Positions 32,171 through 63,413 of a DNA stretch of 64,000 bases are shown piece after piece; positions within the stretch are counted from its first letter, which is position 1; each line of letters starts with the position of its first letter. The DNA comes from an uncultured Bacteroidales bacterium (GTDB taxonomy: Bacteria > Bacteroidota > Bacteroidia > Bacteroidales > Bacteroidaceae). Both the position numbers and the translations under genes were made by a program. The DNA is taken from positions 1-64,000 of the forward strand of contig CADBXL010000007.1 in assembly GCA_902798615.1 (NCBI GenBank). The letters run 5' to 3'. Below the pieces are notes generated by a model, which saw only the letters and a program-made list of their open reading frames with translations, was not told the origin of the DNA and did no database searches.

Positions 32171-33157
32171 ATGAAAAATATTAATCATATAAGCTATTTA
32201 AACATCCTTCCCTTTGGAAAGGCTTGGTTAGGCTTTATTGTTGCGATTGGTGTGATGGCATTAAGCTCCTGTTCTTCCGACGATCCTGACGAGAGCAAGA
32301 GCGTGATTGTTACGCCTAATGAGGAGCAGACTGAGTTCGATAAATGGCTGGAAGTGAACTTTGTCATTCCATATAATATCGATTTCAGGTACAGATACAA
32401 GGAAACGGAGTCTGATTACGACTACTATACCGTACCTGCAAGGTATGAGGATGCCGTAAAGATGGCACATCTCGTAAAGTATCTCTGTGTTGAGGCTTAC
32501 GACGAGGTTGCCGGTACGGATTTCACACGCCGTTACTTCCCGAAGATGTTCTTCCTGATCGGAGAATTTGAATATCGTAACAATGGCACGATGATTCTCG
32601 GTACTGCTGAGGGTGGCCGTAAGATTCTACTTTCCGGTCTTAACCATCTCGATGAATTATTTGCAAGGGGACCGGAGTATTTGAACATCTATTACTTAGA
32701 GACCATTCACCACGAGTTCACTCACATAATGAACCAGACTTTATTTATCCCTGCTGATTTCCAGTTGGTTTCAGGTAAGGATTATCTCGGTGATATGTGG
32801 AGCGAAGACCCATACAATAAGGAGTATCTGCAAAGAGGTTTTATTACAGATTACTCACAGCACTCTTATCAGGAGGATTTTGCTGAGATGCTCTCAGAGT
32901 ATGTTACGAATGATGCAAATACATGGAACGATAGGATGGAGAAGGCTGACAAGGCAGCTAAAGAGAAAGCCGAGAAAACAGGTGAGAAAACAACGACTAT
33001 GCCTTCTGAGTTGATAAACTCCAAGCTTGACATCATTCGTCGCTATATGAAGGAAAGTTTCAATATTGATATAGATGCCCTCCGCGAATCCGTTCAGCGC
33101 CGTCAGGCTGATATCTTCGCCGGTAAGGTGGATCTGACTGATATAACGGTGAAGTAA
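32171..33157 (+). CDS. Zinc metallohydrolase lipoprotein of SusCD loci (TIGR04549-like)
   Basis: This 328-residue lipoprotein (lipobox LSSC, Cys34) contains the zincin motif HHEFTHIMNQ (HExxH) near residue 178, followed by an acidic EDFAEMLSEYV segment that could hold the third ligand. I recognise the family as the substrate import-associated zinc metallohydrolase lipoprotein found next to SusC/SusD genes. It may trim the substrate before import. Residues 11-23 (ILPFGKAWLGF) of the signal peptide are encoded by a palindromic repeat also found between genes. Confidence 0.88.
   Translation: MKNINHISYLNILPFGKAWLGFIVAIGVMALSSCSSDDPDESKSVIVTPNEEQTEFDKWLEVNFVIPYNIDFRYRYKETESDYDYYTVPARYEDAVKMAHLVKYLCVEAYDEVAGTDFTRRYFPKMFFLIGEFEYRNNGTMILGTAEGGRKILLSGLNHLDELFARGPEYLNIYYLETIHHEFTHIMNQTLFIPADFQLVSGKDYLGDMWSEDPYNKEYLQRGFITDYSQHSYQEDFAEMLSEYVTNDANTWNDRMEKADKAAKEKAEKTGEKTTTMPSELINSKLDIIRRYMKESFNIDIDALRESVQRRQADIFAGKVDLTDITVK
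32202..32237 (+). repeat. Palindromic repeat inside the metallohydrolase signal peptide
   Basis: ACATCCTTCCCTTTGG onward matches the reverse complement of the intergenic copy at 61771-61806 at all but one or two positions. It is in frame and gives ILPFGKAWLGF. Confidence 0.9.
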
Positions 33158-33163
33158 TAAATA

Positions 33164-33205
33164 GCGGCCTCTCCCCCCGCCCTCCCCCGTAGGGAGGGGG
33201 CCGGA
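33164..33205. repeat. GC-rich palindromic element before the DUF4302 gene
   Basis: GCGGCCTCTCCCCCCGCCCT through CCGTAGGGAGGGGGCCGG. The reverse complement of this element is the coding segment 33307-33343, only ~100 bp downstream, so the two arms form a local inverted repeat. Confidence 0.88.
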
Positions 33206-33256
33206 GCGCGAAAGGCCATTCATAACAAACAAATAAATACTTAAAAGGTTTTATTT

Positions 33257-60291: not shown

Positions 60292-61770
60292 ATGGCTTCA
60301 TTTATTGCAGACAAAATTGTGATGGAAGGTATTACCTTCGATGATGTATTGCTGATTCCAGCTTATTCAGAGGTTCTTCCACGTGAGGTATCACTTGGTA
60401 CCAAGTTCTCTCGTAACATTGATTTGAAGATCCCATTCGTAACAGCTGCTATGGATACTGTTACCGAGGCTCCTATGGCTATTGCCATTGCTCGTGAGGG
60501 TGGAATCGGTGTTATCCACAAGAATATGTCAATTGAGGAACAGGCTCGTCAGGTGGCAATCGTAAAGCGTGCTGAGAACGGTATGATTTACGATCCTGTG
60601 ACTATCAACCCTTGGAAGACAGTCAAGGATGCGCTTGATATCATGTCTGAGTATCACATCGGTGGTATTCCTGTTGTTGACAAAGAAGGTCTGCTCGTAG
60701 GCATTGTAACCAACCGTGACCTCCGTTTCCAGAGTGATCTTGACCGTAAGATTCAGGATGTGATGACAAAGGATAACCTTATCGTTACCCATCAGCAGGC
60801 TGACCTTCAGGCTGCTTCACAGATTCTTCTCGAACACAAGATTGAGAAGCTCCCTGTTGTTGACGATGATAACAAGCTCATCGGTCTTATCACTTACAAG
60901 GATATCACAAAGGCAAAGGATAAGCCAATGGCATGTAAGGACAAGAAGGGCCGTCTTCGTGTAGCTGCAGGTGTAGGCGTTACTGCTGATACATTCCAGC
61001 GTATGGAGGCTCTTGTAAAGGCTGGCGTTGACGCTATCATTATCGATACTGCTCATGGACATTCAAAGGGCGTTATCGAGAAGGTGCGTGAGGCAAAGGC
61101 TGCATTCCCTGACGTGGATATCGTTGTTGGTAACATTGCTACTGGTGAGGCTGCAAAGGCACTCGTTGAGGCTGGTGCAGATGCTGTTAAGGTAGGTATC
61201 GGTCCTGGTTCTATCTGTACCACACGTATCGTGGCAGGTGTAGGTGTTCCACAGCTCTCTGCTGTATATGATGTTGCTTCTGCCCTTGAGGGTACAGGTG
61301 TTCCTCTCATCGCTGATGGTGGTCTCCGCTATTCTGGCGATATCGTTAAGGCACTTGCTGCAGGTGGATTCTCTGTAATGATTGGCTCACTTGTTGCAGG
61401 TACAGAGGAGGCTCCAGGCGAGACAATCCTGTTCAATGGCCGTAAGTTCAAGTCATATCGTGGTATGGGTTCTCTTGAGGCTATGGAGAAGGGTTCTGCC
61501 GACCGTTACTTCCAAGGTGGCGTGAAGGAGACAAAGAAACTCGTTCCGGAAGGTATCGCAGGTCGTGTGCCTTACAAGGGAACTGTTCAGGAGGTTATCT
61601 ATCAGCTTGTAGGTGGACTTCGTTCTGGTATGGGCTATTGCGGAGCGCATAACATTGAGGAACTTCATAATGCCAAGTTTACTCGTATCACAGCTGCCGG
61701 CATGTCAGAGAGTCATCCACACGAGGTGATCATTACAAGTGAGGCTCCTAATTATAGTAGGCCACAGTAA
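60292..61770 (+). CDS. guaB: Inosine-5'-monophosphate dehydrogenase
   Basis: GuaB oxidises IMP to XMP, the committed step to GMP. The 492-residue protein has the N-terminal TIM-barrel part ([18 protein letters not shown]), two CBS domains (about 100-205), the catalytic loop [15 protein letters not shown] with the active Cys, and [10 protein letters not shown] then [11 protein letters not shown] near the C terminus. Length is normal. A palindromic repeat follows its stop. Confidence 0.98.
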
Positions 61771-61845
61771 GAAGCCTAACCAAGCCTTCCCAAAGGGAAG
61801 GATGTTTTATACATTCTTCCGCTTAAAGAGGGCTTGGTTATGCTT
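61771..61845. repeat. Palindromic element after guaB
   Basis: GAAGCCTAACCAAGCCTTCC through GGAAGGATGT (61771-61806) is an intergenic copy of the unit that also codes for the signal peptides at 32202-32237 and 34626-34660. A degenerate reversed copy follows (GAGGGCTTGGTTATGCTTTA, to 61845), and another remnant is near 61880. Confidence 0.9.
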
Positions 61846-61952
61846 TATGTATAATTAATAATTAAGATTCATTACAATCTCACATCCTTCCCTTTTGGAG
61901 ATTAGTCATAATACCCTTCGACTTATAGGGAGAAAAGGTTTTGTTAGGATTT

Positions 61953-63413
61953 ATGTTTGGAAAGTTTAACTCACTATATCGCATCCCTCCCTTTGGGAGG
62001 GCCTGGGTGGGCTTTATTTCTTGTTTTGCTGTCCAGCTGACGGCATTTTCACAGAACAATGATCCTGTGATTATGACTATTGCAGGTGAACCTGTGCTTC
62101 GTTCTGAGTTCGAGTATTCATACAACAAGAATAACTCAGAGGGGGTAATCGACAAGAAGACTGTTGAGGAATATGTTGACCTCTTTGTGAATTATAAGCT
62201 GAAGGTCGCAGCTGCACTTGAAGAGAAGATGGACACTATGACTTCTTATAAGAAGGAGTATGTTGGCTATCGTGACCAGCAGGTGCGCCCAACGCTTATC
62301 AATGAGGCAGACGTAGAGGCTGAGGCTCGGAAGATATACAATGATACGAAGAATAGGGTAGGGGCTGACGGACTTATCACTCCTGCTCATATCCTTCTCC
62401 GTCTTCCTCAGCAGGCTGGAAACGATGAACAGATTCGTGTGAAGAATCGCGCGGACTCTATCTATAACGCCATTATGGCAGGTGCCGACTTTGCTCAGCT
62501 TGCCTCCAGATACAGTCAGGATCCGGGCTCTAATAAGAACGGTGGTAACATCGGACAGATTTCCCGTGGTCAGACACTCAAGGAGTTCGAGGATGCAGCA
62601 TTCGCGTTGAGAGACGGTCAGGTGTCAAGACCTGTTCTTTCGCCTGTAGGATATCACATTATCAAGATGCTTGGGCATTCGCCAATGCCATCATACGACT
62701 CTCTCCGTAATGACATACGCCAGTTTATTGAGAATCGCGGCATTCGTGAGTCTATTATAAACGGTAAGTTGGAGCAGATGGTAAAGGCTGTCGGACTGCC
62801 TCAGGAGAAAATTATGGATCAGCGTGCCGATTCTCTTGCTGCCATAGATTCTGATATGAAATATCTCTTCAAGGAGTATCATGACGGATTGCTGCTCTAT
62901 GAGATAAGCAACCGAGAGGTTTGGGAAAAGGCAAGCAAGGATGAAGCCGGACTTCAGGCATATTTCAAGAAGAACAAGAAGAAATATGTATGGGAGGCTC
63001 CGAGATTCAAGGGTATAGCATATCATGCGCGTAATATAGATGATGTTATGGCTGTGAGGAAGGCTCTCAAGGGAAAGCCTTTCAACGAATGGACAGAGAT
63101 ACTCCGTTCTACGTTCAATGCCGACTCTGTACTCCGCATCCGTGTGGAGAAGGGTATCTTCAAGATGGGCGACAGTCCTCTAGTTGATAAAGATGTGTTT
63201 GGCTTAGATACAAAGACTACTCCATTAAAGGATTATCCATACGATGCCACCTATGGCGATGTGCTCAAGGCTCCTAAGGAGATGGATGATGTGCGCTCAC
63301 AGGTAGTGGCTGATTATCAGGAAGCTCTCGAACAGGGATGGGTAGCAGTTCTCCGTGAACGAATCCCTGTCAAAGTAGAATGGGACGTACTAAAGACGGT
63401 CAATAAGCATTAA
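61953..63413 (+). CDS. Exported parvulin-type peptidylprolyl isomerase
   Basis: The protein (486 residues from ATG 61953) has a signal peptide with a repeat-derived part (RIPPFGRAWVGFISCF), then a chaperone-like helical region and a parvulin domain (about 120-220). The domain has PAHILLRL, QLASRYSQDPGSNKNGGNIG and FALRDGQVSRPVLSPVGYHIIKM. It should help fold outer membrane proteins in the periplasm. A TTG at 61941 is a less likely start. A SurA-like gene follows, so the two foldases form a pair. Confidence 0.88.
   Translation: MFGKFNSLYRIPPFGRAWVGFISCFAVQLTAFSQNNDPVIMTIAGEPVLRSEFEYSYNKNNSEGVIDKKTVEEYVDLFVNYKLKVAAALEEKMDTMTSYKKEYVGYRDQQVRPTLINEADVEAEARKIYNDTKNRVGADGLITPAHILLRLPQQAGNDEQIRVKNRADSIYNAIMAGADFAQLASRYSQDPGSNKNGGNIGQISRGQTLKEFEDAAFALRDGQVSRPVLSPVGYHIIKMLGHSPMPSYDSLRNDIRQFIENRGIRESIINGKLEQMVKAVGLPQEKIMDQRADSLAAIDSDMKYLFKEYHDGLLLYEISNREVWEKASKDEAGLQAYFKKNKKKYVWEAPRFKGIAYHARNIDDVMAVRKALKGKPFNEWTEILRSTFNADSVLRIRVEKGIFKMGDSPLVDKDVFGLDTKTTPLKDYPYDATYGDVLKAPKEMDDVRSQVVADYQEALEQGWVAVLRERIPVKVEWDVLKTVNKH
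61981..62016 (+). repeat. Palindromic repeat inside the PPIase signal peptide
   Basis: CATCCCTCCCTTTGGGAGGG through GGTGGGCTTT, in frame, gives IPPFGRAWVGF, the third instance of this peptide in the window. Confidence 0.88.

Follow-up and report, generated by a model that had tools for sequence, protein, structure and literature searches.

How did the same short palindromic DNA come to lie both between genes and, in frame, inside several unrelated exported proteins? This question is raised by a 64,000-nucleotide stretch of an uncultured Bacteroidales genome (assembly GCA_902798615.1, contig CADBXL010000007.1, positions 1 to 64,000), referred to here as the window. A preliminary description of the window offered two answers: either the repeats insert into genes and survive where they are tolerated, as described for palindromic elements in Rickettsia, or signal peptides are a source of such repeats. 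We are confident, if not certain, of a form of the first answer. The two units concerned, A and B, appear to be two of several small dispersed hairpin families that resemble repetitive extragenic palindromes (REPs), mostly form head-to-head pairs and, across a clade of some six Prevotella-like species, have been inserted and lost repeatedly. Insertion would be roughly indifferent to frame and followed by selection; that the units spread as single-stranded hairpins is a less secure part of this reading.

Unit A (33 bp, CATCCYTCCCTTTGGGARGGYKKGGKTRGGCTT) and unit B (37 bp, GGCTCCCTCCCTACGGGGGAGGGCGGGGGGAGAGGCC) were found at all the coding and intergenic places previously reported. Unit A codes for a peptide near the N-terminus, before or in the signal peptide, at three plus-strand sites of the window: ILPFGKAWLGF at 32203-32235 in a zinc-peptidase lipoprotein (open reading frame (ORF) 32171-33157, PF15890), ILPFGRVGLGF at 34627-34659 in a BACON-domain lipoprotein (ORF 34595-35698, PF13004) and IPPFGRAWVGF at 61982-62014 in the signal-peptide region of a SurA-like peptidyl-prolyl isomerase (PPIase; ORF 61941-63413). 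Unit B (33307-33343, plus strand) codes for residues 17-29 of a DUF4302 protein (ORF 33257-34588, PF14135). One coding case was absent from the preliminary description. A TonB-dependent receptor (ORF 35951-38074, PF07715/PF00593) carries a composite at 36544-36637, in frame and just past the plug domain. Its first part is unit D, from another hairpin family (36544-36582, plus strand, coding for LSPLSLHRERAG), and its second part is unit C (36604-36637, plus strand, coding for SPPMQGDLGG). Indeed, the phenomenon is much larger in extent than first stated. The whole genome (3,455,388 bases in 55 contigs) holds 93 copies of unit A and 165 of unit B with at most three mismatches; of the 100 B copies listed, 80 are free of mismatches. 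Reversed control patterns of A and B gave no match genome-wide at the same tolerance, so the sharing of repeat DNA is beyond chance.

Orthologues were compared in six species, namely this genome (G000), G071, G100, G101, G102 and G103. All are drafts; G071 has 5% contamination and G103 is incomplete. The comparison covered 25 sites in 22 host genes (20 of the 56 listed hosts and two window genes). The choice of hosts favoured interior and window cases, and some orthologues were missing (e.g. the HAD protein in G102 and G103). Repeat-derived and native sequence were separated by the count of genomic matches, with a loose threshold of eight. Repeat DNA was present in some orthologues and absent from others at 20 of the 25 sites. 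As a control, 20 of 412 random windows of the compared genes reached the repeat threshold, and 11 of these 20 were real repeats. The existence of orthologues with and without the units indicates that the units are insertions, and the proposal that repeats enter genes and survive where tolerated was borne out.

All four proteins first singled out have orthologues without the insert. Unit A is found in the SurA-like PPIase of G000 and G100, the other four species having an ordinary signal peptide. It is found in the zinc-peptidase lipoprotein of the same two species, being absent in four of the six, and in the BACON lipoprotein of G000 alone. In the DUF4302 protein, unit B occurs in G000, G100, G101 and G103; G071 has a different repeat-like stretch and G102 has none. 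For the TonB receptor, the D and C composite was observed in G000 and G101 and a variant of it in G103, while G100 has a B-like unit and G102 has native sequence. The composite scores only 8-10 against the repeat threshold of 8, and the G071 reading of this gene was cut short.

Two hosts with interior sites, UvrD and RsmF, were also followed. UvrD has three B positions. In a DNA alignment, G000, L299 and L302 carry insert 714, which G071/L303, L300 and L301 lack. Insert 796 is present in G000 and three sister metagenome-assembled genomes (MAGs) and missing from L301 and L302. L301 also lacks the N-terminal insert, as do, by eye, 26 more distant orthologues that were translated. A predicted model of the L299 protein (31 sequences) had a mean predicted local distance difference test score (pLDDT) of 75.6, with values below 50 at residues 1-24, 681-758 and 780-808. 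By position, the three inserts fall within low-pLDDT segments, of which the model has seven; this check covers one protein, whose N-terminal insert is degenerate. RsmF has one A and four B positions, and its interior insert at residue 71 is found in four species. Placement of the repeats in genes by faulty assembly or binning, which the draft state of the genomes and the contamination of G071 might suggest, is scarcely credible, since the same interior inserts (RsmF 71, UvrD 796) occur with open frames in separately assembled genomes.

In G000, 218 copies were mapped: 88 of the 93 A copies, and 130 B copies with up to four mismatches in the stretches fetched, which represent 100 of the 165 B places. 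This mapping missed the A copy at 32203, among others; that copy was added by hand to the species comparison. The units sit mainly between genes (154/218), and a sizeable minority lie in called ORFs, in frame (64/218). Since 82% of the DNA examined falls in ORFs, as called by our own scoring, the units avoid genes without sparing them. Within ORFs, 40 copies are N-terminal, 18 interior and 6 C-terminal (16, 1 and 1 for unit A; 24, 17 and 5 for the 46 copies of unit B). Five of the six frames of unit B are free of stops. In ORFs, its same-strand frames are used 19, 4 and 13 times and two opposite-strand frames five times each; the sixth frame, which contains TAG, is never used. We propose that insertion is roughly indifferent to frame, and that selection would keep the copies with an open frame at termini or in flexible loops.

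Hosts were named by Pfam or NCBIfam. Besides UvrD and RsmF, they include a P-type ATPase, a PIF1-like helicase, LigA, TsaD, TsaC, TilS, RadC, CoaBC, CoaX, MenD, HisC, TrpA and TatD, and many are cytosolic enzymes. An Mfd-like host matched its model below the cut-off because the gene is cut by the edge of the stretch. In TsaD, the unit (residues 19-31) precedes the match to the model, which begins at residue 34. The P-type ATPase of G000 displays four repeat-like inserts. More coding repeats were seen in L089, L125 and L229, namely SGTPPRGSGEGG and a long form of unit B (GSLPTEGSPMLITSEYVQSGGRG) with a second hairpin inside.

These distributions bear on the role of signal peptides. The earlier statement that every copy but one precedes or falls within a signal peptide holds for the window copies listed at the time, but not genome-wide. 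Signal peptides did not prove to be special or a source of repeats either: 17 of the 46 B copies in ORFs are interior, and many hosts are cytosolic. Hydrophobic N-termini were assessed with a single score for hosts and controls and a one-sided Fisher test. They were found in 9 of 15 N-terminal A hosts (p = 0.06) and 7 of 24 B hosts (p = 0.83), compared with 114 of 310 controls; a cruder score gave 141 of 359 controls. The supposed excess at signal peptides is thus not significant, and location there reflects a general tolerance of N-termini, with at most a weak lean for unit A. A related explanation is that the residues are an ancestral signal-peptide motif from which the repeats elsewhere derive. 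Unit A does read as a hydrophobic peptide with Lys or Arg, and the proportion of hydrophobic A hosts points the same way. However, sister orthologues have ordinary signal peptides without the unit, unit B occurs in protein interiors, and the repetition exists at the DNA level, beyond the peptide. Moreover, in the species compared, no case was seen of a distant orthologue with these residues encoded by unrelated DNA. We therefore regard an ancestral motif as extremely improbable.

A given site can be filled by unrelated repeats in different sister species. Read by eye, unrelated repeat families occupy the same position at 11 of the 25 sites: RsmF 167, RsmF 376, a GH35 protein, a nucleotidyltransferase, a CobB-like protein, an epimerase, TilS, TatD, CoaX, HAD and the TonB receptor. 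The N-terminus of the HAD phosphatase carries unit B in G000, a PLWEGQG unit in G071, unit A in G100 and a unit of family F in G101. In TatD, the site holds B in G000, A in G071 and F in both G100 and G101, and is empty in G102 and G103; CoaX has B, A or nothing depending on the species. The nucleotidyltransferase displays B in three species and a TTCACT repeat, read as SSLFTLHSSL, in three. Both TatD (in G100 and G101) and HAD (in G101) contain an F-like peptide, SPLGERM...GQVRG. Family F (TCCTCGCCCCTTGGGGAGAGGATGCCCG...) also occurs in the window at 3856-3921, 46975-47053 and 47105-47170, and all these copies are intergenic.

Among 100 repeat-derived segments of other species, 82 coincide with a G000 segment; many are shared by descent, so this number alone is no proof of hot spots. 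In the accessible part of PMC3767692, a similar pattern of the Rickettsia palindromic elements (RPEs) RPE-4/6/7 is left undecided, the choice being hot spots or a single insert that has since diverged. In the present case, A, B, F and the TTCACT repeats are too different for the repeats at one site to be a single diverged insert. We tentatively suggest, as a possibility short of even odds, that certain codon positions are hot spots of in-frame exchange. At these positions, in the termini and loops of housekeeping proteins, A, B, long B, F, the PLWEGQG unit and TTCACT repeats would replace one another between sister species by repair that hairpins trigger, with no dedicated transposase. If this is true, the clade keeps rewriting the ends and loops of its proteins from its own repeat DNA.

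Alignment of the 88 A and 130 B copies showed conservation from about 11 bases ahead of A and 13 bases ahead of B through the end of the unit, with little beyond. The conserved stretch thus spans about 44 (A) to 50 (B) bases. Among 69 neighbouring pairs less than 300 bp apart, 62 were minus-then-plus (outward), one was plus-then-minus and six had the same direction, indicating that the usual form is a head-to-head pair. The gap was 45-150 bases in 59 of the 62 outward pairs. Single units occur as well as pairs, and the outer ends of units frequently adjoin a stop or start codon.

Unit A folds better than shuffled sequences (z -2.23). At stem pair 5:17 of A, 36 of 70 variants have T-A and 24 have C-G; at stem pair 9:17 of B, 31 of 48 variants have C-G and 14 have T-A. 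Variation at the remaining stem pairs is very slight. For each unit, none of 500 shuffles had as few broken stem pairs as the real variants. Such compensation and the frequent placement at gene ends could mean that the inserts are kept as useful (as part of a signal peptide, in mRNA stability or in regulation), beyond mere tolerance. We consider this unlikely: patchy presence in sister species and swaps by unrelated repeats fit tolerance better, and compensation can reflect the needs of the mobile unit itself. A G-quadruplex was rejected as a shared property, the four-tract G3 motif being present in only two of eight units (the A2 variant and unit E, at window position 2104).

No clear target-site duplication was detected by eye in eight DNA alignments, and native junction bases were often replaced; TTCT stands on both sides of UvrD insert 714. 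No insertion sequence related to the units was found. Two Y1 transposase genes are present in G000, and eight hits (one below the cut-off) were obtained in four of the five sister genomes, with none in G103. Neither A nor B was detected within about 1.5 kb of these ten loci in six genomes; a weak copy could be missed, because the script was of the same kind as that used for the incomplete mapping. Repeat R was present at four of the ten loci. GTAG and CGTC were absent, by eye, from the consensus ends of A and B, and CTAC occurs in the loop of B.

The units might be classical REPs moved in trans by the REP-associated tyrosine transposase (RAYT), a Y1 transposase, of the clade. The hairpins, the head-to-head dimers, the lack of clear target duplication and the Y1 genes in most of these genomes agree with such a mechanism. 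The ten Y1 loci scanned (no A or B, repeat R at four), the untagged unit ends and G103, which has B copies but no Y1 hit (and is an incomplete draft), argue against it. We find it possible but doubtful. In the reading that we prefer, of hairpin families repeatedly inserted and lost, the mobile form may be a single-stranded hairpin that leaves no target duplication, spread either by a trans-acting transposase or by template switches when hairpin-prone sites are repaired. Y1 transposition in trans and copying through repair seem about equally probable.

A UvrD protein search returned five close genomes, 83-91% identical, followed by a drop to 66%; these are uncultured Bacteroidales or Prevotellaceae MAGs. 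The five close genomes contain 210, 127, 49, 86 and 142 copies of unit B and the next relative none. Among 100 sampled genomes of the genus, G000 had 177 copies, G071 had 142, seven others had 1 to 5 and 91 had none. G104, the fifth of the close genomes, was taken as the same genome as G071 because copy counts and places were equal. A tree of 18 proteins grouped G000 with G103, then G100, then G101. A viral-contig scan with the upstream IMP-dehydrogenase-like protein was uninformative (40 loci, 35-51% identity).

Several observations weigh against insertion and loss of mobile, translated hairpins. Five inserts are common to G000 and G100 but not G103, despite the pairing of G000 with G103 in the tree, so that loss or exchange between species is needed. 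The fold of unit B is no better than that of shuffles (z -0.51; 50 of 200 shuffles fold as well), and that of the A2 variant is not clearly above them (z -1.28). No transposase was linked to A or B at the ten Y1 loci of the six genomes, so movement is deduced from presence and absence. Finally, translation is read from open frames, and in 15 of the 40 N-terminal copies a Met follows the unit by no more than 12 residues; these copies may be untranslated. By extension, most coding copies could be untranslated leaders, with translation starting after the unit and the hairpin acting on the mRNA. Many intergenic copies do adjoin start codons, and caution on this point is expressed for REPs in the accessible part of PMC3733652. 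We nevertheless judge this very unlikely: 25 of the 40 N-terminal copies lack such a Met, the native first Met is lost in TsaD, HAD, CoaX and TatD, and the interior and C-terminal copies do not fit a leader.

Altogether, the clade-wide in-frame invasion of proteins by small palindromes is real. The first descriptions of protein-coding palindromes treated them as peculiar to Rickettsia. REPINs, introduced by Bertels and Rainey in 2011, are said to be short palindromes arranged as inverted pairs, which together make up a population within a genome. The units described here likewise form inverted pairs with a short spacer, but no cognate RAYT was found, singles occur as well as pairs, and many copies are in genes. 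According to the accessible parts of PMC10969869 and PMC3767692, RPEs are palindromic, lie in frame inside unrelated functional genes, and in some orthologues differ in family at the same locus. The present units share the in-frame position in unrelated functional genes and the family differences per locus. They are shorter (33-37 bp, or about 44-50 with the conserved 5' part, against 100-150 bp), they are paired, and they occur in another phylum with larger genomes, RPEs being known from Rickettsia and Wolbachia. The swapping of several plainly unrelated families at one site sets them apart from RPEs as described.

GTAG/CGTC REPs are 20-40 bp palindromes, often arranged as inverted dimers near gene ends and intragenic in several species (Di Nocera et al. 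2013, PMC3733652, in the part accessible). Our units are also multi-copy hairpins of about this size, the B hairpin being no stronger than shuffles, but they have neither end tags nor a linked RAYT; more copies are in genes, with an empty-site comparison over six species. Miniature inverted-repeat transposable elements resemble the units in being small, non-autonomous repeats with the capacity to contribute coding sequence (PMC10969869, likewise in part), but the units are smaller, and neither a clear target duplication nor a related insertion sequence was found. No account of in-frame palindromic repeats in Prevotella was found in keyword searches of the open-licence PubMed Central literature, which for RAYTs and REPs in Bacteroidetes yielded general papers only.

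As far as these partial sources go, the phenomenon is known in kind from RPEs and intragenic REPs (PMC3733652), and what is new is the element families, the scale and the exchange at sites. It provides a large-scale case in Bacteroidota, in genomes of 3.3-5 Mb and in core repair, tRNA-modification and transport enzymes. Since six sister species have sites that are filled, empty or otherwise filled, the selfish-DNA origin of protein segments becomes directly testable, as does the choice between hot spot and common origin left undecided in what PMC3767692 says of RPE-4/6/7.

The window also illustrates the pairing of units. An intergenic B copy at 33166-33202 (minus strand) forms the left arm of an inverted pair with the coding copy of the DUF4302 gene. 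An A copy at 61772-61804 (minus strand), directly after the stop of ORF 60292-61770, is paired with the coding copy of the SurA-like PPIase. In both cases, the start codon (33257 and 61941) lies within the spacer between the minus and the plus copy. A third pair, of B, is intergenic in both arms (63419-63454, minus strand; 63521-63557, plus strand), with an ATG seven bases downstream of the right arm. A degenerate B unit with four mismatches lies in the intergenic region upstream of the zinc-peptidase lipoprotein gene (32088-32124, minus strand). Reverse-complement unit C (6458-6491) and unit D (6503-6541) together occupy 6458-6541 on the minus strand.

Other repeats were noted. A long inverted repeat, with arms of 131-134 nt that are 98% complementary, spans 1-260 and 1527-1792 and contains repeat R. 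It encloses a methyltransferase-like gene (327-1280), with copies of repeat R on both sides. Repeat R also flanks Y1-transposase genes elsewhere in G000 and in two sister genomes. At least two kinds of Y1-transposase genes (L453, L454, L455, L458) are present in the sister genomes, one kind occurring with repeat R; the L458 gene is flanked by CCCTTTCAGGGCG repeats. A pair of 72-nt inverted repeats, 86% complementary, lies 39 kb apart at 20110-20181 and 59272-59343. At Rfam gathering thresholds, no known structured RNA was found in the window except the DUF805b RNA (RF02914) at 24676-24710. The stretches 24563-25891 and 52976-54319 are two diverged direct copies, 75-93% alike. An upstream tract with CCGTTGTAAGT repeats is common to both copies and precedes the gene at 53150.

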